NCBI GenBank assembly: GCA_024998565.1
Contig: JACOEM010000011.1
Location: forward strand, 1-64,000
Reading direction: 5' to 3'
Origin: Nitrospira sp.
GTDB lineage: Bacteria > Nitrospirota > Nitrospiria > Nitrospirales > Nitrospiraceae
DNA: 64,000 nt
In this document: one piece after another, positions 13,191-36,170 of the stretch
Numbering within the stretch: position 1 is the stretch's first letter
Layout of the letters: each line of letters starts with the position of its first letter
Program-made: the position numbers and the translations under genes
Notes under the pieces: model-generated
The model's database searches: none
What the model was told of the DNA's origin: nothing
Seen by the model: only the letters and a program-made list of their open reading frames with translations

Positions 13191-13522
13191 CACGTGAAAC
13201 GTATTTCGTTGGGGGCGAGAGTGTGTGGACCGCGGCGGTAGGAGGAGATCTGTACGGTAGGCTCCAAGTCCCACAGCTATCGTCTCTATTTTCGGACGCG
13301 AGACGAAGGACCGCTTCTTCCGTGTAGCCGGAGGCTCAAAAAGGCCGTTCAGCAAGGCCGCAGCAATGCGAGGAGGCGAGGCGTACCCTTGCGGTACGTT
13401 GAGCTTCGGAGGTTCACGACGCGAAAAATAAAGCGCGTCACGTTTGTGAACGCCGCCGAGACGGTGAGGCGGCAGTGTCTTGCGAGAACGAAGCTGACGG
13501 TCGTGTTGCCCATCCTGCCTGG
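13191..13522. other. Intergenic region with dispersed repeat copy A
   Basis: 332 bp between the converging murU and response regulator genes. The first part has a few GTGAAACG words. Most of the rest (13335-13517) is a long copy of the dispersed inverted-repeat element described separately. No gene is seen. Confidence 0.6.
13335..13517. repeat. Dispersed inverted-repeat element, copy A (long form)
   Basis: About 183 bp. It shares nearly the whole internal 80 bp with copy D at 32817-33007 (only about three differences from GGTTCACGACGCG to TTGCGAGAACG). The core carries two hairpins: GTTCACGACGCG pairing with CGCGTC...GTGAAC, and GCCGCC pairing with GGCGGC. The outer ends (CAAAAAGGCCGTTCAGC and ...CATCCTGCC) are more degraded than in copy D. 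It sits between convergent genes. Confidence 0.75.
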
Positions 13523-14899
<1,377 letters not shown>

Positions 14900-22183: not shown

Positions 22184-23617
22184 ATGGGTGATCCAAAAGG
22201 CTTTCTAAAATACGCGCGTGAGGGACCGAAGCGGAAACCGGTCGAGTTGCGTGTGCTCGATTGGAAGGAAATGTACGAGCCGATCGCCGAGGACAAGCTC
22301 AAGGTCCAGGGCGCCCGTTGCATGGATTGCGGTGTGCCGTTTTGTCAGGGCAATACCGGTTGTCCGGTCGTGAACCTGATCCCTGAGTGGAACGATCTCG
22401 TCTACCGCGGGCGCTGGAAAGATGCGCTCAAAGCCCTGCACACCACGAATAACTTTCCTGAGTTCACCGGTCGGCTCTGCCCCGCACCCTGCGAAGGGGC
22501 CTGCGTATTGGGGATCAACAGCGATCCCGTGTCGATCCGTGTGCTCGAATGGAACATCATCGACCGTGGCTTCAACGAAGGCCTGGTCGAACCGGCCATG
22601 CCGGTCAGAAAAACGGGCAAGACCATCGCGATCATCGGATCGGGACCCGCCGGTCTGGCGGCTGCGCAGCAACTGGCGCGGGCGGGACACACGGTGACGG
22701 TGTTCGAGAAATCCGATCGCATCGGCGGGTTGCTGCGCTACGGGATTCCCGATTTCAAAATGGAAAAGTGGGTGATCGACCGGCGGCTCGAGCAGATGAA
22801 GGCCGAAGGGGTGGAGTTCAAGACCGGCGTCACCGTGGGGAAAGATATCACCGGTGAGCAGTTGCGCCAGCAGTTCGATGCCGTCGGGTTGACCATGGGT
22901 GCCGAGATGGCGCGTGACCTGCCGGTCCCCGGTCGGGAACTCAAGGGCATCCATTTCGCCATGGAGTATCTGACCCAACAAAATAAGCGAACGGCGGGCA
23001 TTTCCGTCTCCGAGGAACCGATCACCGCCAAAGGCAAACGGGTCATTATCATCGGTGGTGGCGATACCGGGTCCGATTGTCTGGGAACCGCGCATCGCCA
23101 GGGTTGCAGCGAAGCGCACCAGTTTGAAGTGTTACCGGAGCCGCCCCCGTCGCGGTCGAGTTCCACCCCCTGGCCGCTCTGGCCCATGCAACTTCGCACG
23201 TCGCATGCGCACGAAGAAGGTTGCGACCGCCAGTGGAGCGTCTCCACGACCAAGTTTACCGGCCACAACGGCCACGTTACCAAGCTGCATGCCAATCGGG
23301 TCAAGTTCGAAGGCGGCAAGTTCGTCCCGATGCCGAATACCGACTTTGAATTGGATGCGGACCTCGTGTTGCTCGCCATGGGCTTCACGGGCCCGGTCAG
23401 AAACGGTTTCCTCGACAGCCTCGGCGTCACCTACGATGCGCGCGGTTGCGTCACCGTGGACGACAACTTCATGACCAACCTCGACGGCGTCTTTGCCGGC
23501 GGCGACACCAAGCGCGGCGCCTCCCTCATCGTCTGGGCCATCGCCGAAGGGCGCAAGATGGCAGCAGGCGTCGATAAGTATCTGCAAGCCAACAAGTCAG
23601 CAAGAACTGGCCGCTGA
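22184..23617 (+). CDS. gltD: Glutamate synthase, small (beta) subunit
   Basis: 477-residue NADPH-oxidising subunit. N-terminal Fe-S segment with CMDCGVPFCQ...GCPV near 46-65 and LCPAPCEGACVLG near 98; FAD-binding GSGPAGLAAAQQL near 150; NADPH-binding GGGDTGSDCLGT near 290; C-terminal FAGGDTKRGASLIVWAIAEG. It passes electrons to GltB. The stop codon lies inside the left arm of dispersed repeat copy B, and a decayed copy of the last ~90 bp of this gene is found about 380 bp downstream (23998-24090). Confidence 0.97.
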   Translation: MGDPKGFLKYAREGPKRKPVELRVLDWKEMYEPIAEDKLKVQGARCMDCGVPFCQGNTGCPVVNLIPEWNDLVYRGRWKDALKALHTTNNFPEFTGRLCPAPCEGACVLGINSDPVSIRVLEWNIIDRGFNEGLVEPAMPVRKTGKTIAIIGSGPAGLAAAQQLARAGHTVTVFEKSDRIGGLLRYGIPDFKMEKWVIDRRLEQMKAEGVEFKTGVTVGKDITGEQLRQQFDAVGLTMGAEMARDLPVPGRELKGIHFAMEYLTQQNKRTAGISVSEEPITAKGKRVIIIGGGDTGSDCLGTAHRQGCSEAHQFEVLPEPPPSRSSSTPWPLWPMQLRTSHAHEEGCDRQWSVSTTKFTGHNGHVTKLHANRVKFEGGKFVPMPNTDFELDADLVLLAMGFTGPVRNGFLDSLGVTYDARGCVTVDDNFMTNLDGVFAGGDTKRGASLIVWAIAEGRKMAAGVDKYLQANKSARTGR

Positions 23618-23726
23618 AAAAACCTCCCAGCGTCGTTCTCGCTTCGCTCAAACCCTCAACGTACCGAAACGGTACGCCTCGGATTCTCGCTCGCTGCGGC
23701 CTCGCTGGATAGGCTCTTTGAGCGGC
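23609..23726. repeat. Dispersed inverted-repeat element, copy B
   Basis: 118-bp element with terminal inverted repeats GGCCGCTGAAAAAACCT (left) and AGGCTCTTTGAGCGGCC (right). Inside are the family's common words (AGCG-CGTTCTCGCTTCG and TCGCTCGCTGCGGCCT) and a central CGTACCGAAACGGTACG palindrome. The left arm contains the gltD stop (TGA at 23615-23617). Folding gives a long hairpin with A-run before and T-run after the stem. Confidence 0.75.
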
Positions 23727-23816
23727 CTGGGCTGCCTAGGCATACTTCGCCGGTACCCTCGCCAGAGCCCTCGTCTAACCTATATTTCAAATTGACGCTT
23801 AGCAAAGCCGCTCGAC

Positions 23817-24006
23817 ATGAACAGCCAGTCGTCCGATCGGACTAATACGACCAAATCCTGCTCGTGGCGACACTTTCTGCTACGTCGGTTCAACGGCTTG
23901 CATGGCTGGAAGAGGCGCTTCATCGGGCGTACGCAAGTGGTGCGTTGAGTACTAGATCACCGATTGCCAAAAGTGATTGGGCTGCGGTATACCCGCTATC
24001 CCTCTG
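23817..24006 (+). pseudogene. Broken small gene (frameshift)
   Basis: An ATG at 23817 opens MNSQSSDRTNTTKS; a shift of reading frame near 23860 is needed to continue into SATSVQRLAWLEEALHRAYASGAL, which has the look of a short bacterial family with an AxxxQRLxWLEEAL-xxAYxxGAL segment. In the starting frame the protein ends after 43 codons with a basic tail. I infer a decayed gene of about 60 codons. The family has no function I can name. The homology is from memory of pattern only. Confidence 0.4.
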
Positions 24007-24090
24007 ATTGTCAGGGCCGTTGCGAAGGGCGCAGGATGGCGGCAGGCGTGGAGAGGTATTTGCGAGCGAACAAGTCCGCGAAAGCAGGCC
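23998..24090 (+). pseudogene. Decayed duplicate of the gltD 3' end
   Basis: This segment aligns with 23519-23611 of gltD (for example GGCGTGGAGAGGTATTTGCG against GGCGTCGATAAGTATCTGCA) at roughly 75% identity by eye, with a one-base deletion relative to the real gene that breaks the frame. It continues into CTCCCAGC, the same repeat sequence that follows the real gltD, so gene end and repeat were copied together. Confidence 0.7.
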
Positions 24091-24179
24091 TACGTGAAAT
24101 CCTCCCAGCTTTGCAGCCTAGCTGAGGTCTGGTCTATGCGTTTCCCTTCAGGTAGACCCGCCGATCTCAACAACGTAGA

Positions 24180-25049
24180 ATGCCCACGTCTCTTACGACC
24201 ATTTCTCAGTTGTCAGGTTCCCGAATGGCTGAAACCACATTGCCGCCCTCTTCAGCCAAAAATAATGTTGTCGCACCCTTAGTCCAATCGGATATATCTG
24301 TGCCAGCATCTACGGAATCCGTCGGTGCAATCGTGGAGGTTCCACCATTCCATGAGTTTGCCGACATCATTAAACCGTTCACTCCTGACGCGCTAGCCAA
24401 TGGATTCTCCACGCTCGTTGGTGCACTTATTGGTGCCATGCTTGCATACATGTTGCAACGGCGGTTTCAGCGCTCCTTGGAGCATAAGAATGCGCTTACA
24501 GCAGGTCACAGGCTAATGTTTGCATTGCTTCAGCAAATCAATACTATCGTTCTCATTCAGCGTGATTATGTGGAAACTGAGCTGAACAATCCTGGACGAT
24601 TTCTTTCAATTCCGGCAACGCCTCAATTTGATACCACAAAGAATGTTCTAGATCTCCCCGAGTTGGCTTTTCTTCTGCAAAAGCAGGATGGGCGAGTCTT
24701 ACTCTATGAGTTTTATATCGCACAGCAAAACTATATTGAGGCGCTGAACCAGTGGAATCTTCGTTCTGCCTTGCACCTTGAAAAAGTACAACCGGCTCTA
24801 GCCTCTGCTGGTATCTCGAGTGGGGCAACAATAACTAGGGAACAGTTGATGACAACATTGGGAGATCACTTGTTTGGCCATATTTTGAATTCGACCGACA
24901 ACTGCATTGAGTCGCTACGTCGTGCGTTTGACCTGCTCTCAAAAGTTAAGGTCCGAGTTCGGACATACTTGGTTCGCCGATTCAAGACCGATGATTTTGC
25001 CGATTTTGACTATCCTGATACTTATGGATTAACAGATAGACGCGGGTGA
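24180..25049 (+). CDS. Hypothetical membrane-anchored protein, accessory
   Basis: 289 residues (an ATG at 24225 is an alternative start). A single hydrophobic segment, about residues 76-92 (STLVGALIGAMLAYMLQ), is followed directly by basic RRFQR, then a long helical region without further membrane spans (HRLMFALLQQINTIVLIQRDYVE begins it). This suggests a cytoplasmic helical domain anchored by one helix, a layout common in uncharacterised accessory and defence-associated proteins. By eye its base composition is lower in GC than gltBD, and codons such as ATA, TTA and CTA are frequent, which points to transfer. It precedes vapBC. I do not recognise a family. Confidence 0.65.
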   Translation: MPTSLTTISQLSGSRMAETTLPPSSAKNNVVAPLVQSDISVPASTESVGAIVEVPPFHEFADIIKPFTPDALANGFSTLVGALIGAMLAYMLQRRFQRSLEHKNALTAGHRLMFALLQQINTIVLIQRDYVETELNNPGRFLSIPATPQFDTTKNVLDLPELAFLLQKQDGRVLLYEFYIAQQNYIEALNQWNLRSALHLEKVQPALASAGISSGATITREQLMTTLGDHLFGHILNSTDNCIESLRRAFDLLSKVKVRVRTYLVRRFKTDDFADFDYPDTYGLTDRRG

Positions 25050-25133
25050 AGGCCGCTGTTCTCCGAGGTCTGATTTTTTTATTCGAAGCGACTTCCTGCG
25101 TCCAGTCCCCATCAACACCGACTTCCTCTCTGC

Positions 25134-25179
25134 TTGCTTCTCTTGAAATGTGTGTGTATTATTTTGAAAATTGTACACA
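25134..25179 (+). promoter_or_regulatory. vapBC promoter with palindromic operator
   Basis: An imperfect 29-bp palindrome at 25151-25179 (TGTGTGTATTA...TTGTACACA) lies 17 bp before the vapB start. It overlaps a -10-like TATTAT (25157-25162) with a -35-like TTGCTT 17 nt upstream (25134-25139). This is the arrangement of a VapBC autorepression operator. A GGAGG ribosome-binding site follows at about 25187. Confidence 0.55.
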
Positions 25180-25196
25180 TCTTCCGCGGAGGTTCT

Positions 25197-25406
25197 ATGC
25201 GCACCAACATCGTGATCGACAATGGCTTGATGCAGCGCGCAATGAAGGCGACCGGGCTCTCCACTAAGAAAGCCGTGGTGGAGGAGGGCCTTCGGTTGTT
25301 GATAAAGGTGAAGGGCCAGGAAGGTATTCGCCGTTTACGTGGAAAAGTTGAGTGGGAAGGAAATCTCGGTGCGATGCGGGAAGGTCGGATTAAGGCTGCT
25401 TCATGA
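25197..25406 (+). CDS. vapB: Antitoxin, VapB family
   Basis: 69-residue antitoxin. The N-terminal MRTNIVIDNGLMQRAM and the following TGLSTKKAVVEEGLRLLI match the VapB group with a ribbon-helix-helix-like DNA-binding start (DUF2191 type); the C-terminal basic part (RGKVEWEGNLGAMREGR) would wrap the toxin. ATG 25197 is chosen because GGAGG lies just upstream and the family begins with MRTN. Its stop overlaps the toxin start by 4 bp, giving coupled translation. Expected to bind and inhibit VapC and repress its own promoter at the palindrome upstream. Confidence 0.88.
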   Translation: MRTNIVIDNGLMQRAMKATGLSTKKAVVEEGLRLLIKVKGQEGIRRLRGKVEWEGNLGAMREGRIKAAS

Positions 25407-25798
25407 TAATTGTCGATACGACGGTATGGGTCGATTACCTGCGAGGAACACGCACTTCCCATGCTGACTGGCTGGACTCTCAGCTGGCGAGCGAACGCCT
25501 TGGTCTGACCGATTTGATCCTATGCGAAGTATTGCAAGGTATCACCAATACCAAGCAGTTTGAGGCGGTGCAGGAGGAGTTGCTGAAGTTAGCCGTTTTC
25601 GAGACAGGGACGGTCGCAATCGCTGTCGAGGCGGCGCTGAACTACCGGCGGCTCCGTGCTGCCGGGCGAACAGTTCGGAAGACAATCGATTCCCTCATTG
25701 CGACATTTTGCCTGATGGAGGGGTACAGCCTGCTCCACAATGATCGTGATTATGATCCGTTCGAAGATGTGCTCGGATTGAAAGTCATTCATCCCTAA
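25403..25798 (+). CDS. vapC: Toxin, VapC family PIN-domain ribonuclease
   Basis: 131-residue PIN-domain RNase. Acidic active-site residues are visible: D5 in MIIVDTTVWVDYL, E near 41 (LILCEVLQG), D near 96 (TIDSLIATFC) and the DRDYDPF segment near 113-119. VapC toxins cleave tRNA or rRNA and stop growth until neutralised by VapB. It overlaps vapB by 4 bp. All catalytic positions appear intact, so the toxin is probably functional. Confidence 0.92.
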   Translation: MIIVDTTVWVDYLRGTRTSHADWLDSQLASERLGLTDLILCEVLQGITNTKQFEAVQEELLKLAVFETGTVAIAVEAALNYRRLRAAGRTVRKTIDSLIATFCLMEGYSLLHNDRDYDPFEDVLGLKVIHP

Positions 25799-25814
25799 GA
25801 AGGACAATTCTCTT

Positions 25815-26252
25815 ATGTCTGATCAACAGTATCCCCGCAGTCCAAAAGTCCTCCTCGGTGGCATTGCCCATCTGGGGCGGTTTATCGACAAGGTTCGCTT
25901 GCGGCATGCAGGCAAGATTCAGGACTACAATTACATCACGGTCGGGTTCGATAAGTATCTGATCGATTTTCTGCAGATCGATCCGAAGGCTTTCGAGCAG
26001 CAGGTGCTGGCCGGTGAGAGTGATGAGAAGTTGTTGGGTTGGGTGAGGGCCAACGGCCGCAAGCATTCCGACGAAGAAATTGTGCAATGGTCGAAGGGGC
26101 TTCTGGCCGGGGGCCCGAAGGATGACGCGGCGAAGCAGCGGTATCAGGGGCGTCTGCAGGACATCGCCACGAAGCGTGGTGTGCCGGTGGCGGCGCTGCC
26201 TTCCGCAACCACCTGGGTCGATGCGATCGAGCTGGACGAAGGACGGATGTAA
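25815..26252 (+). CDS. DUF5069 family protein
   Basis: 145-residue cytoplasmic protein. The N-terminal YPRSPKVLLGGIAHLGRFID then KVRLRHAGKI, and the central YNYITVGFDKYLIDFL, match the DUF5069 family as I recall it. Function is unknown. It starts 16 bp after vapC but its composition is like the core genome, so it is not clearly part of the toxin-antitoxin unit. It is convergent with the secreted repeat protein that follows. Confidence 0.75.
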   Translation: MSDQQYPRSPKVLLGGIAHLGRFIDKVRLRHAGKIQDYNYITVGFDKYLIDFLQIDPKAFEQQVLAGESDEKLLGWVRANGRKHSDEEIVQWSKGLLAGGPKDDAAKQRYQGRLQDIATKRGVPVAALPSATTWVDAIELDEGRM

Positions 26253-26280
26253 GATTGCGGCCGGGGTGTGCGGCGAGTCG

Positions 26281-26922
26281 CTATCGCACCTCGGTCCATC
26301 CGGTGGATTGCGACTTGAAGATGACGGTGCGGGATGAGGTCCGGACGACCATGCCGTTCTGACTGCCGTCGACCGACAGGACGCGTTCTTCCGGCGTCCA
26401 GGCGATATTGAAGAAGCCGCCGGTGTAGGTCGAAAATCCCAGCGCGCGTTCGTTGGTGATGGCGACGGCCACGTGCCCGTGCCCTCGTAGCTGGACGACC
26501 TTCTCGTTTGGCCCCAGCGACAGCGTCGTCCAGTGCCCCCGCGTTTCTTGAAATCCATACACCTGTTGATTGCTGTGCGCGAGAATCAGAAACGGCAGTA
26601 GTTGATGCCGCCCGATCCGCTCTTCGACTCCGAGCGACACCTCCCTCCACTGCCGAAGGCCGGCAGAAAATCCTAACAATCTGGTCGAGGTCTGGACGAA
26701 GCCGGTATGGCCCTTCGCACTGGATGTAATGACGGACTCGCCAGGTTCAAGCGATTCTTCGACGCCGCCACCCGCGGCCGACCAGGCAATGACCTTATCG
26801 GCGGTAGGCGTGACGGTCACTTGCCCACCTCCGCCCCGGCTCTGCGAGAGAGTAGGCATCAGCAGCAAGCCGGCGATGGAGACCATGATCATGGCCGGTA
26901 TGAGAGCGATCAATCGACGCAT
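26281..26922 (-). CDS. Secreted protein with propeller-like internal repeats
   Basis: 213 residues from the ATG at 26922, which has GGGAG 8 nt upstream. A signal peptide (MRRLIALIPAMIMVSIAGLL) is followed by a soluble domain with repeating blocks spaced about 40-45 residues: LLGFSAGLRQWREVSLG, VYGFQETRGHWTTLSLG, ALGFSTYTGGFFNIAWT and VIFKSQSTGWTEVR. Each block is a hydrophobic strand, a turn and an aromatic strand, as in beta-propeller blades, but four blades are too few for a normal closed propeller. I know no family. It probably sits in the periplasm. Confidence 0.6.
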   Translation of the reverse strand: MRRLIALIPAMIMVSIAGLLLMPTLSQSRGGGGQVTVTPTADKVIAWSAAGGGVEESLEPGESVITSSAKGHTGFVQTSTRLLGFSAGLRQWREVSLGVEERIGRHQLLPFLILAHSNQQVYGFQETRGHWTTLSLGPNEKVVQLRGHGHVAVAITNERALGFSTYTGGFFNIAWTPEERVLSVDGSQNGMVVRTSSRTVIFKSQSTGWTEVR

Positions 26923-27066
26923 GGATGTTCTCCCTGCGTCCCAACCTACCACAGCATTCCCCGCAAGCGAAGGTTGAAGTGTTCAGTCCTGTCGCGTTGT
27001 GTCAGATCTATACAGTGATGGTAGGTTGCTTCATGGTGCGGTCATGGTAGAAATGGTCGTCCCTAT

Positions 27067-27135
27067 CGGCAGAAAAGAGGCGATCAAGTCGGCAGAAAAG
27101 AGGCGATCAAGTCGGCAGAAAAGAGGCGATCAAGT
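27067..27135 (+). repeat. Three tandem 23-bp repeats at the start of a membrane protein gene
   Basis: The 23-bp unit CGGCAGAAAAGAGGCGATCA-AGT occurs three times without a gap or mismatch (27067-27089, 27090-27112, 27113-27135). Each unit carries an AAGAGG that could serve as a ribosome-binding site; the third is followed directly by the GTG proposed as start of the next gene. Confidence 0.9.
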
Positions 27136-28339
27136 GAGATCCCGGTGGGTCATACTCTCATGGTCCCTGGCGCTTGGCGCTGGACTGCCGCTACTCGGTG
27201 TCTGGTGGGCTGGTAGGCCCGTCGCGTCTTATCTCGAATTTCCACCGACGACGCAGTTTGTTGCCCACGAGCCCTTTTCCTGGCCGATCTTCACGGTGCT
27301 GGCAGCAGTGATCATCGGGATACTTGCCCCGTTTTGGTCGTACGTTTTGCGGACGCAGCGACCTGGCTTGCCGGCAACGGCCGATCCGAGTCACGTTTCA
27401 CGTGTTACGTTTCACGAGCGCCGCGCGTCCCTGGGCCGCTTTCCCTGGTGGGGCTGGCTCGCGTTGTTCTGGACTCTGGGCATCTGGTGCCTGGCCTGGA
27501 CCCGATTCGAGTGGATGCACTCACTTCAGCCCCACACCTTCGCCCCGCTCTGGTTGGGCTACATCGTGCTGGTGAATGCGCTGACGTATCGTCGCACCGG
27601 CCGTTGCATGCTGCTGCATCGTCCGCGCTATTTCCTGTCGCTCTTTCCGCTCAGCGCCGCCTTCTGGTGGTTCTTCGAATATCTGAATCGCTTCGTTCAG
27701 AACTGGCACTACGTCGGTGGAGGAGAGTTGACCGAATGGGAGTATCTGGTGCGCGCGACGCTGCCCTTCTCGACGGTGCTGCCTGCGGTGCTTGGTACGG
27801 CAGAATGCTTGACCGCTTCACCTCGATGCTCTGCGGCGCTGGATCGGTTTGTGACGCTCGAATTCAAGAATCGTATGAGCTGGGGATGGGGGCTCTTGAT
27901 CGGTTCGGCCGTCGGCCTCTTTGGTATCGGTCTATGGCCGGACTATCTCTTCTCGCTGGTGTGGGTGGCGCCGCTGTTGCTGATCACGTCGCTGCAATTG
28001 ATTCGTGATGAGCCGACGATATTCAGCGAGACCGCGCATGGCGATTGGCAGACGCTCTGGGTGGCGGCGCCTGCGGCGCTGATCTGCGGCTGGTTCTGGG
28101 AGATGTGGAACTTTTATAGCCTAGCCCGATGGGAATATGCGGTGCCGTTCGTACACCGGTTCAAACTGTTCGAGATGCCGCTGCTCGGGTATGCCGGCTA
28201 CCTTCCGTTCGGGCTGGAATGTCTGGCTGTGGCGGACTTGTGCTTGTCGAGAAAGTTTTCGGGAGGCGTGGCTTATTACCGTGTGGTTGAAGGGGGCACC
28301 GATTTTGCGCAGCGAAAGCCGACGGTGGCGGAGCGCTGA
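27134..28339 (+). CDS. Polytopic membrane protein of unknown function
   Basis: 401 residues from a GTG at 27134, which overlaps the last 23-bp repeat and has AAGAGG about 9 nt upstream; an upstream ATG (26999) is open but reads through the repeats. About eight to ten hydrophobic segments are spread through the protein, with aromatic-rich loops (WWFFEYLNRFVQNWHYVG; GWFWEMWNFYSLARWEYAVP). The aromatic repeat pattern suggests two homologous halves. In the first third the DNA contains a TTTCACG-type repeat (27391-27416) translated in frame as SHVSRVTFHE. The 3' end overlaps the opposite-strand SUMF1-like gene by 64 bp. I do not recognise the family. Confidence 0.7.
   Translation: MRSRWVILSWSLALGAGLPLLGVWWAGRPVASYLEFPPTTQFVAHEPFSWPIFTVLAAVIIGILAPFWSYVLRTQRPGLPATADPSHVSRVTFHERRASLGRFPWWGWLALFWTLGIWCLAWTRFEWMHSLQPHTFAPLWLGYIVLVNALTYRRTGRCMLLHRPRYFLSLFPLSAAFWWFFEYLNRFVQNWHYVGGGELTEWEYLVRATLPFSTVLPAVLGTAECLTASPRCSAALDRFVTLEFKNRMSWGWGLLIGSAVGLFGIGLWPDYLFSLVWVAPLLLITSLQLIRDEPTIFSETAHGDWQTLWVAAPAALICGWFWEMWNFYSLARWEYAVPFVHRFKLFEMPLLGYAGYLPFGLECLAVADLCLSRKFSGGVAYYRVVEGGTDFAQRKPTVAER
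27391..27416 (+). repeat. TTTCACG-type repeat inside a coding region
   Basis: Twenty-six bases made of CACGTTTCACGTGTTACGTT-like words, the same heptamer family as the array at 12343-12408. It is read in frame within the membrane protein gene between two hydrophobic segments, where an insertion would be tolerated. Confidence 0.6.
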
Positions 28340-29220
28340 TCGGCCGGCGCGCCGCTGCGGGTGGCGGTCCTGAGCATGATCGGACGACTTTTCCAGGACC
28401 CGCCGCGCAGGCTCTTGTAGCGGCCGCTGGTCGGTCCGGGCGGATTTCGTTCCGGCATGTAGGCGTAATAATCGAAGCCGAACCAGTCGTTGACCCATTC
28501 GGCGACATTCCCCGCCATGTGGTGAACGCCATAGTAACTTTTCCCCGCCTCGCCGCTGCTCACGGGCGCCAGGATCGGGATCTCATGCACGTGATGTTGC
28601 CCGAACATGGCCAGTGTGCTGTCGGGGAGGGTGTCTCCCCAGGGGAAGCGATTTCCGTCCGGCCCGCGCGCGGCTTTCTCCCATTCCGCTTCGGTCGGCA
28701 GGCGTTTGCCCAATGAGCGGCAGAGGCTATCGGCTTCTTTCCAGGTCACGTAGAGCGCCGGCCACTGGGCCAGCGTCTCATCGGTGACGGAGTGCACTGT
28801 GATCACGTGCCAGATGAGATGTTGGAGATCTTTCGACGGGTGGAGCTTGTGGGCGAATAGATACGATAAGTATTCCCCGAGACTGATTTCGTCGCGGTCG
28901 ATTTCGTAGGCGTCCATCCAGACGCGGTGTTGCGGGAGTTCCGTATCGTCGAACTGTGTGCCCATCCCATAGGGATCGTCATCCACGCGGACGCTGCCCA
29001 GCAGAAACGGTCCTTCGGGAATGAGAATCGTCGGCGAACCGGCCGTGAGTTTGGCGATGGACGTCAGGTGTTTGGCCAGTTCGGCGGAGGGCGGCGGACT
29101 GGGGGCACGATTGGCAGCCGGGAAACTCGGGGTGGACCAGGCTGAGGCAAGGAGCAGGATGGCAAGGCCTACGCAGCGTGGAATGGAGGCCATTCCCGAT
29201 AGGGCGAAACGGGCAGACAT
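28276..29220 (-). CDS. SUMF1/formylglycine-generating-enzyme-like protein without FGE cysteines
   Basis: 314 residues, exported (hydrophobic 17-28, cleavage near SFPA). The SUMF1 fold is clear: IPEGPFLLGSVRVDDDPYGM, YEIDRDEISLGEYLSYL, LGKRLPTEAEWEKAARGPDG, HHMAGNVAEWVNDWFGFDYY, SLRGGSWKSRP and VGFRCAKS at the end. True formylglycine-generating enzymes have a copper-binding cysteine in the R(Y/C)RCAAR region; here it reads IMLRTATRSG with no cysteine, so it is unlikely to activate sulfatases. It may act in electron-transfer or cell-envelope maturation, as some relatives do. It starts on the stop of the coiled-coil lipoprotein gene (TAATG), and its 3' end overlaps a plus-strand gene by 64 bp. 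Confidence 0.88.
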   Translation of the reverse strand: MSARFALSGMASIPRCVGLAILLLASAWSTPSFPAANRAPSPPPSAELAKHLTSIAKLTAGSPTILIPEGPFLLGSVRVDDDPYGMGTQFDDTELPQHRVWMDAYEIDRDEISLGEYLSYLFAHKLHPSKDLQHLIWHVITVHSVTDETLAQWPALYVTWKEADSLCRSLGKRLPTEAEWEKAARGPDGNRFPWGDTLPDSTLAMFGQHHVHEIPILAPVSSGEAGKSYYGVHHMAGNVAEWVNDWFGFDYYAYMPERNPPGPTSGRYKSLRGGSWKSRPIMLRTATRSGAPADQRSATVGFRCAKSVPPSTTR

Positions 29221-29975
29221 TACAATTTACTCGGCGAGGCGACGGCTTTTCCGATTTCGGCAATGAGCCGGCGTTCGATCTCTGCGGTTTCCTCCGCATC
29301 CACCGCCAGGATGCGACCGCCCTGCGCCAGGCGCTCAAAGTCGGCTTTCACGCTCAGGCGGGTGACGTTGGACGGCATGGCTTGGAGCGACACCACATAC
29401 TGATTGCGCGAGCCTGAGGTTTCCAGCGAGGTCGGGGTGGTGACCTTGCGTTCGGTGACGTAGATCGTTTTCTGGTCGGTCTTGACGCTGACTTTCACGC
29501 GATAGCCGTTACGCGCCAAGGCCTCCTCGGCGGCTTTTCCGACTGCGGAGAGCGGGCGCGGGATGTCCTCGATTTGCGCCCCCTTCTCTTCGACGCGGAT
29601 ATTGTCCGTGGCCTGGGCCGCCTTTGCGGCCGTTCGCTGAATTTCTCCCGACAGTTTTTTCGACTCGGCCAGTTGGGAGTCGAGTTTCGTCCCGAGCGCC
29701 TTAGCTTCCGCCTGCAGTGCCTTCGCTTCGGCTTGAGCATGCTCCGCCTGCTTCTTGGCGTCCCGCAATTCCTGGTTCAGCAGATCGATCTGCTGCTGCA
29801 TGACCTTGTTGCCGTCCTGCAGTGAATTCAAGACCGATTCCTGCTTTGCCAGTTGCTTGCGAAGGTTTTCGTTTTCCTGGCGAAAGGGCGACTCATCGGG
29901 TGCGCATCCGACACACCACGATAGTACTGCGAGGCCGAAGAGAGGTGCGAGCGATCGCTGGGGAGGCTTGATCAT
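29220..29975 (-). CDS. Coiled-coil envelope protein
   Basis: 251 residues. An N-terminal hydrophobic segment ends at C24 (SWCVGC), a possible but imperfect lipobox. Residues about 31-125 are a long coiled coil (ENLRKQLAKQESVLNSLQDG; AEHAQAEAKALQAEAKALGT), followed by a small alpha/beta domain (GYRVKVSVKTDQKTIYVTER; NQYVVSLQAMPSNVTRLSVK) that resembles lipoproteins with a DUF4410- or BamC-like fold. Coupled to the SUMF1-like gene by a 1-bp stop/start overlap, so they are probably made together. Function unknown. Confidence 0.75.
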   Translation of the reverse strand: MIKPPQRSLAPLFGLAVLSWCVGCAPDESPFRQENENLRKQLAKQESVLNSLQDGNKVMQQQIDLLNQELRDAKKQAEHAQAEAKALQAEAKALGTKLDSQLAESKKLSGEIQRTAAKAAQATDNIRVEEKGAQIEDIPRPLSAVGKAAEEALARNGYRVKVSVKTDQKTIYVTERKVTTPTSLETSGSRNQYVVSLQAMPSNVTRLSVKADFERLAQGGRILAVDAEETAEIERRLIAEIGKAVASPSKL

Positions 29976-30085
29976 AGTTTGGGTAAGACCCTCAGACCAA
30001 TACCAGAGTTTGGCCCCCCTTGTCCATCTTCATTCATGTTCCCGCCGGTTTGACCCGTCACGAAACAAGCGGCTATTCTGTGGTC

Positions 30086-30757
30086 ATGGCGTTCTGGTGC
30101 AAGGTGATTGTAGTGGTCGGTCTGGCGCTGCTGCGGCCTGAGGCGGCGATCGTTTTTTCCGCCGCCGCACCGGAGGCGGAGCAGCCGCAGCCTGTACCGG
30201 CTGAGGAGTATCCGTTCTATGACCTTGCCGTCGAGGAGAAGTTCCTGACCTCTCGCACCAGGCTGGTCATTATCGAACGGATGACGGCGATCCGCCTGCA
30301 TCCGGAGGAGCCGCAGTTGCCGACGGCGGCCTGGTTTGCCGAGCAGGAATTTTTTGACGGTCGTCTGCCCAAGGATCTCATTCGGGATTTCGTGGCCAAG
30401 GCACAGCGACCCGCTCGATTGGATGCCCGCTTTGCCTTCGGTGTGCGTTACCGGTTCGTTTCCGGCGAGGGCGTACCGGACACGGAAGCTGCGGTGCCGG
30501 TTCTTCCCGTTGCCTGGCGGGTTGAGGGGGAGGGTGACGGGGATGCGCTCGAAATCCTCGACCGGCTGGCCTTCTCTCGTGTGGGACTGACGTTGCGGGG
30601 CGACCAGGCCCTGCTCTATGTCGCGAATCAGCGGCCTAATGCGACCGGTGCCGGATTCCTGTTCTGGTTCGTGCGCCGACAGGGGCGTTGGGAGATTTAC
30701 GATACCGAAGTGCTGTGGGTTGCGCAGCCGGACCAGAATCCTTCCGGCCGCCGATAG
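30086..30757 (+). CDS. Secreted protein of unknown function
   Basis: 223 residues from the ATG at 30086 (an ATG at 30020 is also open). MAFWCKVIVVVGLALLRPEA looks like a signal peptide with cleavage after SAA. The mature part is acidic and contains WFAEQEFFDGRLPKDLIRDF and FRYRF-like beta-strand segments, ending in WEIYDTEVLWVAQP. No family recognised. A continuous minus-strand frame covers this gene and its neighbour but is taken as non-coding. Confidence 0.65.
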   Translation: MAFWCKVIVVVGLALLRPEAAIVFSAAAPEAEQPQPVPAEEYPFYDLAVEEKFLTSRTRLVIIERMTAIRLHPEEPQLPTAAWFAEQEFFDGRLPKDLIRDFVAKAQRPARLDARFAFGVRYRFVSGEGVPDTEAAVPVLPVAWRVEGEGDGDALEILDRLAFSRVGLTLRGDQALLYVANQRPNATGAGFLFWFVRRQGRWEIYDTEVLWVAQPDQNPSGRR

Positions 30758-30805
30758 CAGGAGCTGGTGGGTCGTGGTGCTCGTGTGGTTCATTGAGGAG
30801 TGTGC

Positions 30806-31435
30806 ATGATTCGCAAGACCTTTTCCGTTCCACCGCTCGGTTGTAACTGCTCGATCATCGGAGATCCGATCACCAAACAAGCGATTGTGGTCGATCCGGG
30901 CGGGGCGCCGGAGCGCATTCTGCAGGAAGTCCGCGCGATGGGATTGACGGTGGTGAGCATTGTGCACACGCATGCGCATTTTGATCACTTTCTCGCATCT
31001 GGGGCGATGAAGCAGGCAACCGGCGCCGCGCTCTGCCTGCATCCCGATGATCTTCCTCTCTGGGACATCCTGGAGATGCAGTGCCGCATGTTCGGGGTGC
31101 CTTATGTCCCGGCGCCACCGCCGGATTATTGGTTGAAGGATGAAGAGCGGTTGGCGGTCGGCGAGTTGGAAGGGATCGCGTTGCACACGCCCGGGCATAC
31201 GCCCGGGTCCATGTGTTTTCACTTTCCTGCTGCGAAGGTGGTGCTGGCCGGGGACACCTTGTTTCGCGGATCCATCGGCCGCACCGATCTCTGGGGCGGA
31301 GATTTCAATGCCATCGAACAGTCGATCCGGGAACGATTGTACACACTCGACGAACAGACCGCCGTGGTGACCGGGCACGGGCCCGAGACGGAAATTGGTA
31401 GGGAGCGAGAGACCAATTCCTTTGTGCGAGCCTAG
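30806..31435 (+). CDS. MBL-fold metallo-hydrolase, glyoxalase II-like
   Basis: 209 residues from ATG 30806, with GAGGAG 6 nt upstream. The metal-binding signature HTHAHFDH lies near residue 54-61, further ligands appear in LHTPGHTPGSMCF and LAGDTLFRGSIGRTDL, and VVTGHGPETEIG near the end gives the last His. It matches the small YcbL-type group of hydroxyacylglutathione-hydrolase-like proteins (about 210 residues), which lack the C-terminal glutathione-binding domain of true glyoxalase II. Substrate unknown; a thioester hydrolase role is likely. The TAG stop (31433-31435) is shared with the end of repeat copy C. Confidence 0.9.
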   Translation: MIRKTFSVPPLGCNCSIIGDPITKQAIVVDPGGAPERILQEVRAMGLTVVSIVHTHAHFDHFLASGAMKQATGAALCLHPDDLPLWDILEMQCRMFGVPYVPAPPPDYWLKDEERLAVGELEGIALHTPGHTPGSMCFHFPAAKVVLAGDTLFRGSIGRTDLWGGDFNAIEQSIRERLYTLDEQTAVVTGHGPETEIGRERETNSFVRA

Positions 31436-31560
31436 CAGGACGCGGAAAAAGTCCACCAGCGGCGTTCTCGCTTCGTTCAGAGGCTCACCGTACGGCGCAG
31501 AGTACGATTCACCTCTTCGCTCGCTGCGGCCTTGCTGGACGGCCTTTTTGCGCATCCTGC
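31433..31560. repeat. Dispersed inverted-repeat element, copy C (short form)
   Basis: 128 bp including the flanking TA of CTAGCAGG. Left end GCAGGACGCGGAAAAAGTCC and right end ...GGCCTTTTTGCGCATCCTGC are inverted repeats of about 17 bp with few mismatches. Compared with copy D it lacks the internal two-hairpin block of about 75 bp. The left end contains the MBL gene's TAG stop. Confidence 0.8.
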
Positions 31561-31685
31561 TGGCGATTCTGACGCTGCCATGGCATGCGAGCTGTCCGGG
31601 ATGTATTAGGCAAGAATTGACTTTTCCACAGTGTGGTAGCAGCGGGGGCTCATAGCAGCTCCCATGTGAACCACAGGAGGGAACC

Positions 31686-32201
31686 ATGAGCGCGATAACA
31701 CGGTGCTGGTTGGTGTTTCCACTCCTCTCACTGGTGCTGGCGCTGCCCGTTTCCGATCCCAAAGCCGGTGCCGGCGAGGCCGGCGGTTCTCCCACTGTGA
31801 CCATCAGCGATGTGCGTGTCCGGCTCTCCGACCATGGCCCCGTGGTCCTGCTTTCGGCGGACGGAAAGAGTATCCCCATCTTTGTCGATCACACGGTGGC
31901 CGCCTCCATTCAAGCGGCGTTGACCGGTGAGAAATTGCCCCGCCCGCTTTCCCACGACCTGATGCATACCATTCTCGAGTCGCTCGGCGGTCGTGTGGTC
32001 CGGACCGTGATTACGCTCAAGGCAGGAACGTATTACGGAAGTTTAACCGTGGCGTTTCAGGGACAGGAAAAGGTCTTCGACAGCCGGTCCTCAGACTCCA
32101 TTGCTTTGGCGATTCACTTTCAGGCGCCCATTCTCGTGGGACGAGACATGTTGGATGCGGTCGGCACGTCGATAGGGGAGCCCAAGCCGGAAGCCTTGTA
32201 G
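31686..32201 (+). CDS. Exported DUF151 (bifunctional nuclease-like) protein
   Basis: 171 residues with an AGGAGGG ribosome-binding site. A signal peptide (about residues 1-28, cleavage near AGAGEA) precedes a DUF151/BFN domain: VRLSDHGPVVLLSADGKSIP, IFVDHTVAASIQAAL, RPLSHDLMHTILESLGGRVV and SDSIALAIHF near the end. Cytoplasmic members of this family have been called bifunctional nucleases in plants; the exported form here suggests another role. It stands alone between repeat copy C and a PilZ gene. Confidence 0.85.
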   Translation: MSAITRCWLVFPLLSLVLALPVSDPKAGAGEAGGSPTVTISDVRVRLSDHGPVVLLSADGKSIPIFVDHTVAASIQAALTGEKLPRPLSHDLMHTILESLGGRVVRTVITLKAGTYYGSLTVAFQGQEKVFDSRSSDSIALAIHFQAPILVGRDMLDAVGTSIGEPKPEAL

Positions 32202-32364
32202 TGTCGCGAACCCTGCCTGTCCGCTTTGCATCGTTCCCCCTGCGCTTCGCAGGACCCTTTCTGCCAAGAATCAGGCAGTGCTGGTGTTTTAGCGGGTTCT
32301 GGCCTATCGTGACGGGTGATGCGACGCAGCCCGTTGCTCAACGGGCACGGAGGCCGAATTCACG

Positions 32365-32688
32365 ATGAAGAATCAACGCAAGCATGAACGTGTTCACGTT
32401 CAGTTTCGCAGTCATTTTTCGATGAAGGGGAAGATGCTGGCCGGGGACGGGGATCTGACCGATCTGTCTCCAGGCGGCTGTCGAATTCTCAGCCCGGTGC
32501 AGGTGCTGGTCGGCGCCGAGGTGGAGCTGTGCATTTTCCCGGGGGACAGCGCCAACCCCATTCTCATCGATGGAGCCACCGTGCGCTGGTGTCGGCCGAA
32601 CGAATTCGGTCTCTCGTTTACGAAGATCCGAGTGCCTGTGCAGCGCCAACTGACCGATGTCTGGCGCAAACTCGCCAAACCAGCCTAG
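32365..32688 (+). CDS. PilZ-domain cyclic-di-GMP receptor
   Basis: 107-residue single-domain PilZ protein. The c-di-GMP-binding pieces are visible: a basic RKHERVHVQFRSHF near residue 4 (the RxxxR site, here K/R-rich) and DLSPGGCRI near residue 30 (DxSxxG). GATVRWCRPNEFGLSF completes the beta-barrel. It would respond to c-di-GMP and control surface, motility or export functions, but no partner gene is next to it. GGAGG lies 11 nt before the ATG. Confidence 0.9.
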   Translation: MKNQRKHERVHVQFRSHFSMKGKMLAGDGDLTDLSPGGCRILSPVQVLVGAEVELCIFPGDSANPILIDGATVRWCRPNEFGLSFTKIRVPVQRQLTDVWRKLAKPA

Positions 32689-33006
32689 TCCCGTTGTACT
32701 CTAAGAACCAGTCCCGCAGCTGTTGCGTCGGCGCAACTAGCAGGCTGCGGAACAACTCATTTTTTTGCATAATACGTCGCGATCAACTCACGTGCCGTGT
32801 CGGCGGTAGAATCACCGCAGGATGCGCAAAAAGGCCGTCCAGCAAGGCCGCAGCGAGCGAAGAGGCGAATCGTACTCGTGCTGTACGGTGAGCTTCTGAG
32901 GTTCACGACGCGCTGAATAAAGCGCGTCACGTTTGTGAACGCCGCCGAGACGGTGAGGCGGCAGTGTCTTGCGAGAACGCCGCTGGCGGACTTTTTCCGC
33001 ATCCTG
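32689..33006. other. Intergenic region with repeat copy D
   Basis: 318 bp between the convergent PilZ and trpS genes. The first half has a degraded half-copy of the dispersed element at about 32738-32760 (CTAGCAGGCTGCGGAACAAC); the second half is the complete long copy D. No gene is seen. Confidence 0.6.
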
Positions 33007-33007
33007 C
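32817..33007. repeat. Dispersed inverted-repeat element, copy D (long form, best preserved)
   Basis: 191 bp bounded by GCAGGATGCGCAAAAAG and its near-perfect inverse CTTTTTCCGCATCCTGC (16 of 17 match). Inside, reading left to right: arm, CGTAC...GTACGG centre, a first hairpin (GTTCAC+GACGCGCT pairing with AGCGCGTC and GTGAAC), a second (GCCGCC / GGCGGC), then the other arm. The last base is part of the trpS stop codon (minus strand TAG at 33009-33007). Confidence 0.85.
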
Positions 33008-33996
33008 TAGATCTTCATGGCGTCGCGCACTTCGGCCATGGTCTGCGATGAGACGGCCGTGGCGCGGCGGCGCCCGTCTTCGGCGATCTCGTCCAGGCGC
33101 GACGGATGCTGGGTGAGGGTGGCGCGGGCGTCCCACATCGGCGCCAGGCGCTCCACCACGCGATCGGCCACCAGCTTTTTGCAATCGATGCAACCGATCG
33201 CCGCCTTGCGACAGTCTTGATTGATCTGCTCGATCACCGGGAGCGGGGAGAAAATCTTGTGAAAATCGTAGACGGGGCAGATATCCGGGTTGCCGGGGTC
33301 GTGGCGTCGCACCCGCGCCGGATCGGTGATCATAGTCTTGATCTTTTGCCGGACGACGGGCTCCTGATCGGAGAGGTTGATGGCGTTGCCGTAGCTCTTG
33401 CTCATCTTGCGCCCGTCTGTGCCCAGGACCTTCGCAAACTTGGTGAGGTGCTCCTGCGGGTCGGGAAACACCGGGCGATAGAGACTGTTGAAACGGCGTG
33501 CGAGTTCGCGCGTGAGTTCGAGGTGCGGTAACTGGTCTTTGCCCACCGGCACGAAATCGGGTTTGTAGAGCAGGATATCCGCGGCCTGCAGAACCGGGTA
33601 GCCCAGAAATCCGTAGGTGCTCAGGTCGCGCTCCTTGATCTCTTCCTGTTTCTCCTTGTAGGTCGGGTTCCGTTCCAGCCAGGAGACCGGAATGATCATG
33701 GAAAACAACAGATGGAGAATGGCATGGTCCGGCACCTGGGACTGGACGAAAACGGTGGCGCGCTTCGGGTCGATCCCGGCTGCCAGCCAATCGATCAGCA
33801 GTTCCCGCACATATTCTTTGATGCGGCTGGTGTCGGCGTAGTTGGAGGATAAGGCATGCCAGTCCGCCACGAAGAAGAAGCACTCGTACTGCTCCTGCAG
33901 CGCGTTCCAGTTCTCCAACGCGCCCAACCAATTGCCAAGATGGAGCAGGCCGCTCGGCTGCATCCCGCTGAGTACCCGCTTCTGACCCGTCGTCAT
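33007..33996 (-). CDS. trpS: Tryptophan--tRNA ligase
   Basis: 329-residue class I aminoacyl-tRNA synthetase that charges tRNA-Trp. The HIGH-like motif is GLLHLGNW near residue 16-23 and the KMSKS motif appears intact as GRKMSKSYGN near 194-203. Length is normal for bacterial TrpS. The stop codon overlaps the end of repeat copy D, and copy E lies just upstream of the start (34018-34110), so the gene is framed by repeat elements on both sides. Confidence 0.97.
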   Translation of the reverse strand: MTTGQKRVLSGMQPSGLLHLGNWLGALENWNALQEQYECFFFVADWHALSSNYADTSRIKEYVRELLIDWLAAGIDPKRATVFVQSQVPDHAILHLLFSMIIPVSWLERNPTYKEKQEEIKERDLSTYGFLGYPVLQAADILLYKPDFVPVGKDQLPHLELTRELARRFNSLYRPVFPDPQEHLTKFAKVLGTDGRKMSKSYGNAINLSDQEPVVRQKIKTMITDPARVRRHDPGNPDICPVYDFHKIFSPLPVIEQINQDCRKAAIGCIDCKKLVADRVVERLAPMWDARATLTQHPSRLDEIAEDGRRRATAVSSQTMAEVRDAMKI

Positions 33997-34017
33997 ACCA
34001 TCACTCCTGTGTTCTCG

Positions 34018-34110
34018 CAGAATGCTGAAAACGCCCGCCGGCCTCGTTCTTGCCCTGTCTCGGCTCTTCGCTCGCGGCGGCCTTGCCGGACGGTCCTTAT
34101 GAGCATTCTG
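34018..34110. repeat. Dispersed inverted-repeat element, copy E (minimal form)
   Basis: 93 bp with ends CAGAATGCTGAAAA and TTATGAGCATTCTG, inverted repeats with different tips from copies C and D but the same interior order (CCCGCCGGC, CTCGTTCTTGCC, CTCTTCGCTCGCGGCGGCCT, TTGCCGGACGG). It lies 21 bp upstream of the trpS start. Confidence 0.65.
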
Positions 34111-34175
34111 AGTCGCTGATCGATCTCGCCGGAAATTTCAACGGTTCGATTTTCTTACCACCGGCGCCGCATCCG

Positions 34176-36170
34176 TCAGTCCAGCGGGACGAACTTTCCC
34201 TGCTTGACTTGAATCAGAAAGACCCGGCGATTGAGTGTGCCGTCGGGATTGAACCCGCTGGGGCCGCTCAGAGTCGGCAGGTCATGTTGCATCATCAAAA
34301 AGTCGCGTACGGCCTCTCCGGAGGTCGCACCTCGCCGGATGGCTTCCACGGCCAATCGCGCGGCGTCATAGCCCTGAGCGGCGAAGAGCGAGGGCGTGGC
34401 TTGAAATCGCTTGCGATACCGTTCCACAAATTCCTGTACCACCGGACTGCTGCTCTCGGCGAAAAATCCGTCGGCAAAGACGCCTCCCTCGACGGTTCGA
34501 TCGGCGACCCGCGCGAAATCAGGAGTGTTCCATCCGTTGGCCCCAAGCAACGGAACCGCGATGTCAAAAAACGCCAATTGGGCTGCCAGCAGCCCTACAT
34601 CCAGCGAACGTCCCGGGATGAAGACCGCGTCGAACCCCGGTGAGTAGAGCAGGCGCTTGCCTTTCTTGCCTCCCTGTCTGATCCCGGTTTTGGCCGGATC
34701 GTTGTCGACTTGCACTTCCACGCCGTATTTCTTCAGATCCTCGGCTTTGAGCTTGCCGATCACGGCGCGAAAGTCGCTGTCGCCTTCCTTGTAGGGCTCG
34801 CTCACGATCAGTTCTCCGTCCTGTTGCCGGATTTCTTGCGCGAACAAGCGGGCCAGGTCGCGGCCGTAGGCGGTATCGGGATAGAGAATGGCGACGCGTT
34901 TGAACTGTTGCTCCTTGACCGCGTAGTCCGCCACACGTTTGGCCTGATGTCCGTACGTGAGTGCCGTGCTGAAGACGTAGTTGCCGAACCGTCGCAGGTT
35001 CGGGGCGGTGGCGCTGGGCGTGATCAGCGGAATACGTGTCCGTTCGGCCATTTCAGCCATCACGGGCAGGTTCTTGGACAGGAGCGGGCCGATCACGGCG
35101 AGCGGACGATCGTCGGACAATACGCCGGAGAGTTCATCCAGAAAGGCCGTCCGGTCGGATTCCGTATCCTTCACGATCAGGCCGATGGACGGACTTTCAC
35201 CGCCGTCCTTCGGTCGTTCCAGCGCGAGTTGAATCCCGTTCAAGACTTCGGTGCCGAACGGTGCCAGTTTTCCGGACATGGGAAAAATGGCGGCAATGGA
35301 GTAGGGATGTGATTTGAACTTTGTCCGCACCACCGCCTGGAGGTCGGCCGCTTTTGCGGCATAGGGATGGTTGGGGAAGCGGCTCAGGAAGAGGCGCAAA
35401 TCCCGTTCGACCAGATGATCTTCTCCGGCGGCGGTATGGAGCTCGATGAGCTTGATGGATGCCAGATCTCCCGGAAATGATTTCGGGTAGGCCTCTCGGA
35501 CGCGCACGAGCGCCGGGGCGTCGAGTTGCTCATTGACGAGTTGCCGGATCTGGCCTTCGGTGTCGTGAGCCTGGTCGCCGGCATCCAGCGGAATCTCATC
35601 CAGCCAGGCTTGAATGGCTCGGAGGTAATCTTTCTTCTGTGCCTGGAAGTCGCCGGTGAGCCGCAGCGCATCGCGCTTGATGGCGGGATCGGCGGAGAGG
35701 CTGCGTACCTCGGAGAGCAGCGGGAGCGCCAGGTCGAGATTGCCCGCGCGCGCGTGAGTTTTAGCGAGCAGCAGTTTGGCTCGATCGGCCAGGTCCGAGC
35801 TGGGAAATTCGCCGAGCAGCTGGTTGACGTAGCGGACGGTTTCCGCATGTTCCTTCATGCCGAACATGGCGGCAGCCATCAACAAATAGGCGTCGTCGAG
35901 GAGGTCCGGCACAGGGCCGCTTTCGATGAAGCGTCGCAGCATGACCGCTGCGGCTTCCGGTTGTTCCGAGTCGATCAGACGTTTGGCCTGGTCGAGGGCG
36001 GACTGGCCGGCGGCAGTTGGTGGTTTCGATTGTTCTGTGCGGGGCGGTGCTGGATTCTTTTTGGCCGGGGCTGCCTCACCGAGCGTGACGAGGCCCGCGA
36101 GGAACGCCACCGCGAGGGCGACGCTGCACGCGCGGAGATGCGGGGCGCGGGGTACTGATCGAGGAACCAT
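34176..36170 (-). CDS. TPR plus periplasmic-binding (LpoA / Leu-Ile-Val-like) protein
   Basis: 664 residues from ATG 36170 (AGGAGTCA immediately upstream). Signal peptide (hydrophobic 18-30, cleavage near GEAAPA), then a tetratricopeptide-like helical region at about 55-280 (LADRAKLLLAKTHARAGNLD), then a type 1 periplasmic-binding domain from about 285 on (YSIAAIFPMSGKLAPFGTEV; VIGPLLSKNLPVMAEMAERT; FKRVAILYPDTAYGRDLARL). This arrangement matches LpoA-type penicillin-binding-protein activators more than amino-acid importers, and there are no transporter genes beside it. Likely periplasmic, possibly helping peptidoglycan synthesis. A longer frame upstream is open but lacks a start signal. Confidence 0.85.
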   Translation of the reverse strand: MVPRSVPRAPHLRACSVALAVAFLAGLVTLGEAAPAKKNPAPPRTEQSKPPTAAGQSALDQAKRLIDSEQPEAAAVMLRRFIESGPVPDLLDDAYLLMAAAMFGMKEHAETVRYVNQLLGEFPSSDLADRAKLLLAKTHARAGNLDLALPLLSEVRSLSADPAIKRDALRLTGDFQAQKKDYLRAIQAWLDEIPLDAGDQAHDTEGQIRQLVNEQLDAPALVRVREAYPKSFPGDLASIKLIELHTAAGEDHLVERDLRLFLSRFPNHPYAAKAADLQAVVRTKFKSHPYSIAAIFPMSGKLAPFGTEVLNGIQLALERPKDGGESPSIGLIVKDTESDRTAFLDELSGVLSDDRPLAVIGPLLSKNLPVMAEMAERTRIPLITPSATAPNLRRFGNYVFSTALTYGHQAKRVADYAVKEQQFKRVAILYPDTAYGRDLARLFAQEIRQQDGELIVSEPYKEGDSDFRAVIGKLKAEDLKKYGVEVQVDNDPAKTGIRQGGKKGKRLLYSPGFDAVFIPGRSLDVGLLAAQLAFFDIAVPLLGANGWNTPDFARVADRTVEGGVFADGFFAESSSPVVQEFVERYRKRFQATPSLFAAQGYDAARLAVEAIRRGATSGEAVRDFLMMQHDLPTLSGPSGFNPDGTLNRRVFLIQVKQGKFVPLD

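Follow-up and report, generated by a model that had tools for sequence, protein, structure and literature searches.

The plus-strand gene at 30806-31435 is followed directly by an inverted repeat of which the initial annotation had described five dispersed copies (A to E, 90-190 bp) in the window, i.e. the whole stretch of 64,000 nucleotides analysed here. The locus thereby raises the question of what kind of element these copies represent and why it should be situated at a stop codon.

Anatomy of the elements

All five sequences were present at the positions described and matched a covariance model of the family; the places and the family membership were thus confirmed, whereas the lengths of D and E and the number of copies had been set too low. 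The features of the window are as follows (gene calls derive from a simple codon-usage caller and are not curated annotation):

13329-13524, plus strand: element B, hairpin part; contains module S (13409-13482), its tips pair poorly and a left arm was not recognised
23600-23731, minus strand: element C, hairpin part, with tips GGCCGCT/AGCGGCC and an RNA fold z of -6.4
30806-31435, plus strand: gene with its stop codon at the insertion point of D; metallo-beta-lactamase-fold protein (Pfam PF00753)
31432-31435, no strand: first copy of the target duplication of D, CTAG
31436-31635, minus strand: element D, full length; right tip 31436-31445, hairpin to 31560, left arm and left tip to 31635
31636-31639, no strand: second copy of the target duplication of D, GTAG (one change)
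32737-32740, no strand: first copy of the target duplication of E, CTAG
32741-33006, plus strand: element E, full length (266 bp); left tip CAGGCTGCGGAA at 32741, left arm, hairpin 32817-33006 containing module S
32898-32971, plus strand: module S (74 bp) inside E; 17 matches in the genome, about half of them within hairpins
33007-33010, no strand: second copy of the target duplication of E, CTAG
33007-33996, minus strand: gene with its natural stop at the insertion point of E; class I tRNA synthetase, W/Y type (Pfam PF00579)
34011-34112, minus strand: element A, hairpin part with a deletion of the inner stem; its tips are CAGAATGCT/AGCATTCTG

Based on copies aligned together with their flanks, the palindrome recognised initially is part of the element only: D and E consist of a left tip, a left arm of approximately 75 bp, a middle tip, a conserved hairpin of approximately 130 bp and a right tip, amounting to approximately 200 bp (266 bp in E). 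The proposed extent of 90-190 bp did not hold for these two copies, as their left arm and second terminal repeat had been missed; the hairpin of D corresponds to the covariance-model match at 31429-31561. The common internal order that had been noted required amendment as well, since B and E carry the additional 74-bp module and A is devoid of the inner stem, and the pairing of the tips claimed for each copy applied to D, E, C and A, whereas those of B (CGGAGGCTC versus GCCCATCCTG) pair poorly.

Generally, a full copy in the orientation of the model begins with CTAG followed by the left tip CAGGCTGCGGAAAAA and a variable left arm of approximately 60-75 bp; the middle tip CGCAGGATGCGCAAAAAG, the conserved core and the right tip CTTTTTCCGCATCCTG, itself followed by CTAG, complete it. 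The middle tip pairs with the right tip and forms the base of the hairpin, while left and right tips constitute the terminal inverted repeat, which is located inside a 4-bp target duplication (CTAG/TTAG/CTAA) and is near-perfect (CTAG followed by CAGGxTGynGAAAAA; CTAGCAGGCTGCGGAAAAA ... TTTTTCCGCATCCTGCTAG). The elements are short and contain no protein-coding gene (200-266 bp in D and E; core of approximately 130 bp in all families), and terminal inverted repeats are present in the copies of the window genome; left arms and target duplications are established for Nitrospira copies, not for those of other families.

Several elements contain further inserted sequences. The 74-bp module (window positions 13409-13482 and 32898-32971; loci L023 and L026) comprises two hairpins, occupies the same place in several elements and is also encountered alone elsewhere; possibly, it is an independent small mobile element. 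At loci L008 and L017, a further hairpin (CCACGGGACAAGAGCCTGTCTTGGCAAGCTCGGGGTGGGCGGGTATGA) is inserted in the GTAC...GTAC loop, and in several elements the inner part has given way to another repeat (GTGAAACGTGAATCGTGAAGCGTATCTCG ... ACGAGAGACGAACGACGCTTCACG), as in copies of genome G010 (L321, L325 and L333, for example) and in those at C9:54240 and C5:88358 of the window genome (G000).

Copy number and distribution

The window genome (4.13 Mb, 19 contigs) yielded 62 matches to E as nucleotide query and 22 exact matches to the tip pattern GCAGGATGCGSAAAAAG (reversed-pattern control: 0). A covariance model built from 56 copies gave 94 matches at E values up to 0.001, corresponding to about 88 distinct places after removal of opposite-strand duplicates; the genome-wide search proposed in the initial annotation thus raised the count far above five, and the abundance of the family in this genome is far beyond chance. 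With this model, 63 of 148 Nitrospirota genomes were found to contain the hairpin. All listed genomes of the window's family are among these, and copy numbers reach 87 in other families. An exact 30-mer of the core matched 110 stretches in the collection of named genomes, all of them labelled Nitrospira, Nitrospiraceae or Nitrospirae save one uncultured Nitrosospira record; the phages, plasmids and viral contigs searched contained no match to the element.

The initial remark that no named family of this structure was known was borne out: among the Rfam covariance models no family matched (tRNAs and chance matches only), and the literature searched held no description of the family. In consequence, the family appears to be unnamed, its kind (a MITE with structured core) being known already.

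Two peculiarities of the distribution were observed. Genome G004 of the same genus contains two copies only, compared with at least 20 in the other same-genus genomes scored, and this near-absence represents a natural comparison case. Furthermore, clusters of copies in the same orientation are located behind successive genes (468-473 kb of C2, 277-287 kb of C3 and 70-77 kb of C10 in the window genome), some of them as tandem pairs.

Target duplications, empty sites and partner insertion sequences

Identical 4-mers were present at both ends of 38 of the 78 full-length Nitrospira copies with both ends located, compared with a mean of 23.8 and a maximum of 34 in 2000 shuffles; the duplications include TTAG/TTAG five times and CTAA/CTAA three times, with the consensus YTAR. 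Empty sites, sought at orthologous gene ends in same-genus genomes, likewise document target site duplication: relative G010 reads GCCTAG followed by CCGCGGGG in place of D, and the site at C4:166703, where the element of the window genome is flanked by two ATTAG copies, reads CATTAG followed by CGGCACCACC in G001, G003 and G008 with small differences. Further empty sites were found for C3:48511 and C6:194356. In view of the duplications, recent insertions are argued to result from ordinary staggered joining.

The gene beside E has the same end codon in 12 other same-genus genomes, several of which lack any element at this position, while others carry an element of a different subfamily further downstream. 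Gene truncation by insertion was considered as the source of the stop-codon position and rejected for E, D and several other copies, because in genomes that lack the element the gene stops at an identical codon.

An insertion sequence at C9:22885-24276 of the window genome has CTAGCAGGCTGTTGACAAA at both ends and encodes a 392-aa transposase that matches Pfam DUF772 and DDE_Tnp_1. Judged from its profile scores, the protein is a probable relative of IS1182 and IS5 transposases, albeit under the curated IS1182 cut-off (NF033551: 226.5 bits, cut-off 270; IS5_4: 127.2, cut-off 140). In other Nitrospira genomes (L187, L188, L208), insertion sequences are flanked by CTAGCAGGCTGCGGAAAAAC or a one-base variant of it, and their transposases are more distant relatives of the 392-aa protein; CTAGCAGGCTGCGGAAAAAC matches the left end of a window-type MITE copy at 21 of 22 positions. 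Partner elements with the same terminal repeats therefore exist, but MITE and insertion sequences have only about the terminal 20 bp in common, and the core was not found at the insertion-sequence loci save for one weak partial match. Since insertion sequences with such tips exist, the differences between tips most probably represent variants of transposon terminal repeats, each kind of tip being the likely terminal repeat of a different transposase. The same core was also observed within elements that end in another terminal repeat, CTAGGAGCCTGTCCGACATGGCC (G000:C10:70258, L243; G000:C6:228340, L267), and an end similar to CTAGGAGCCTGTCCGACATGGCC lies near a transposase match in L209.

Each insertion leaves the target sequence at both element ends. 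Copies also occur as same-orientation tandem pairs and as chimeras (C4:26666 in G008, C5:206400 in G011), single sites carry different elements, and the mobility of the family is well supported.

Position relative to stop codons

The TAG stop of the gene at 30806-31435 (31433-31435) lies within the first duplication copy of D, and that of the minus-strand gene at 33007-33996 (33007-33009) within the second one of E; the TAA of the minus-strand gene at 13523-14899 is situated at the right end of B, and the TGA of the gene at 22184-23617 is formed within the right tip of C. Among the 87 copies of the window genome read, a stop codon (mostly TAG, in some cases TAA or TGA) was located within 2 nt of the right tip in 40, with one exact offset in 32. 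The mapping against stop codons suggested earlier thus revealed that about half of the copies start directly after the stop of a gene, mostly with the right end first. The same offset (plus or minus 2) recurs in other families: of 31 loci, 15 have a long open frame that terminates there, versus 1 on the side of the middle tip. Gaps between divergent genes hold 5 of 84 copies, compared with about 19% of the intergenic bases.

Within the window, stop codons account for 8 of 39 noncoding YTAR sites; targeting combined with the loss of in-gene insertions consequently explains part of the stop-codon abutment, not all of it. Over all sets, the abutting end is the right one in 64 and the left one in 18 cases, a preference that chance insertion does not explain. 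An exact orientation rule was rejected, as the strong right-end bias of the window genome was not seen in the fully delimited young copies (14:13). Where the window genome has an older copy, 45 of 54 orthologous gene ends (five genomes) likewise bear an element; for younger copies the proportion is 22 of 56.

Pairing and conserved shape

In copies from other families, a set of constant motifs (TCAAAAA, GCAAGGC, GCGTAC...GTACGTTGAG, ACGCCGC, TTTTTCA) is surrounded by tips and stems that are entirely different, albeit almost always paired. Between the tip helix and the A/T tract, 51 of 56 and 26 of 31 sequences retain a C·C mismatch. Covariation is massive in the tips and the inner stem but does not extend to the conserved internal loops or to this mismatch: changes on both sides occurred in 22 of 39 pairs among the 56 copies and in 31 of 39 within the window genome alone, where the covariation score amounted to 0.412 (shuffles: 0.152; slid partners: at most 0.067). 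Covariation of the tips over many copies and genomes, for which a test had been proposed, is thereby established. This phylum-wide position at stop codons together with the conservation of shape is unusual.

The initial annotation had deduced selection or a mechanism preserving the pairing; the data support this for the family as a whole (0.412 versus 0.152 in shuffles), not as selection on each copy after its insertion. When copies of the window genome were compared with their orthologues (limited to those with at least 80% agreement in the unpaired columns), single changes broke 125 pairs and kept 60, close to a neutral expectation of about 2.3:1 that is our own rough estimate, and 40 double changes were kept. 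Selection on pairing at each locus, as expected from the covariation, was therefore rejected, and pairing in individual recent copies is not visibly defended. Wholesale stem changes were present between close relatives at the same site. With recent pair loss being near neutral, the covariation would mostly originate from subfamily differences and same-site replacement rather than from repair in place.

Folding is more stable for the model strand than for the complementary one in 60 of 69, 49 of 56 and 27 of 31 copies, which share the core by descent and are thus not independent; in these same copies the more stable strand runs antisense to the gene it abuts. G.T exceeded A.C outside the tips (119:52, 78:19, 52:16), mostly in few columns, and this excess was absent in the tips. 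The conserved loops and the folding advantage of one strand suggest recognition of the element in single-stranded form, be it by a transposase, another protein or RNA polymerase.

Proposed mechanism and alternative explanations

With a probability of roughly three in four, the element is a non-autonomous transposon (MITE) that is moved in trans by IS1182/IS5-like DDE transposases and kept at gene 3' ends as a possible two-way terminator. As far as the terminal sequences indicate, a transposase of this type would mobilise the MITE in trans and insert it at YTAR with a 4-bp duplication. Insertions at YTAR sites within genes would be purged by selection, while a TAG or TAA stop would offer a YTAR-type site at which the gene may remain whole, since the target duplication would restore the stop. 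Re-insertion at the target sites left behind and recombination between conserved cores might then result in turnover. The GC-rich hairpin with its A- and T-tracts may terminate transcription in both directions and thereby insulate the genes on either side, and such activity would favour retention of copies with the hairpin directly after the stop; such retention would reconcile the 64:18 with the 14:13 ratio. Hairpin and A/T tracts do sit at stops; a simple terminator scan of 23300-34400 flagged none of the elements there. Both the role as terminator and the proposed basis of the structural constraint are putative.

The turnover at gene ends could alternatively reflect a structure-dependent replacement, in which a transposase recognises hairpins of any sequence and swaps in the incoming element. 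According to published reports, the IS1182-family element IS1272 inserts at stem-loops, terminators among them, and deletes them; it replaces terminator hairpins without target duplication and at times in both orientations per site (PMC5678879, PMC4923244). Different hairpins, often with wholly different stems, at the same stop of orthologous genes, the occupation of 45 of 54 ends in the older set and the opposite orientations at C3:48511 are in agreement with such a process; recent insertions of the Nitrospira element, however, have target duplications and hairpin-free empty sites, and deletion of a target hairpin was not found for them, so that this explanation is rather doubtful. Still less probable is a family of structured RNAs or 3'-UTR terminators under selection at each locus with merely incidental mobility: the internal loops conserved over the phylum, the retained C·C mismatch, the strong covariation and the position at stop codons would be expected of it, but pairs of close orthologues break near the rough neutral estimate, the copies are clearly mobile and the strand with the more stable fold runs antisense to the adjoining gene.

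Recognition of a single-stranded DNA hairpin by a HUH/Y1 (REP-RAYT-like) or integron-like enzyme would accord with the better folding of one strand, with some G.T excess outside the tips and with the fixed orientation behind stops in other families. Against it stand the target duplications and the terminal repeats common with DDE insertion sequences, the confinement of the G.T/A.C asymmetry to few columns outside the tips and the fact that the gene ends examined belong to ordinary chromosomal genes and not to cassettes, which renders this possibility highly improbable. For the same-orientation clusters, an integron cassette array was rejected because their genes look like ordinary metabolism genes; attC-type ends (RYYYAAC/GTTRRRY) in a cassette array were not found, and the tips vary freely. 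As a tentative and rather unlikely extension of the MITE interpretation, shape-recognised mobile hairpins might spread themselves as terminators throughout the phylum, colonising stops, replacing one another and renewing many Nitrospirota gene 3' ends.

Nitrospira comprises key nitrite and ammonia oxidisers, and about 90 copies of the element are present in the window genome. The family ties gene 3' ends to a mobile element and constitutes a testable case of transposons supplying terminators, for which the many natural insertions and empty sites serve as data; the covariance model allows the annotation of copies that would perhaps be missed or taken for ordinary terminators.

Comparison with known systems

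ERIC and similar repeats are intergenic imperfect palindromes of about 130 bp with variants that contain insertions of approximately 70 bp. By description only, the Nitrospira element resembles them in palindrome size, intergenic site and insertion variants, while host phylum and partner transposase are different. The REP/REPIN sequences associated with RAYT are likewise palindromes near gene 3' ends; the Nitrospira element differs from these by its much longer hairpin, its terminal repeats and its target duplications. Compared with IS1272, the related transposase type, the use of gene 3' ends or hairpins as sites and the different insertions per site in both orientations are common features, and by analogy the same-site turnover would resemble IS1272 replacement; IS1272, in contrast, deletes the target stem-loop and leaves no target duplication, whereas the Nitrospira element has target duplications. 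MITEs derived from the IS1182/IS5 group share the short, non-coding and dispersed nature, the terminal inverted repeats, the YTAR duplication and the existence of partners with the same ends; the Nitrospira element is distinguished from them by a conserved hairpin of approximately 130 bp that is absent from its partners, by subfamily-specific tips and by its phylum-wide range.
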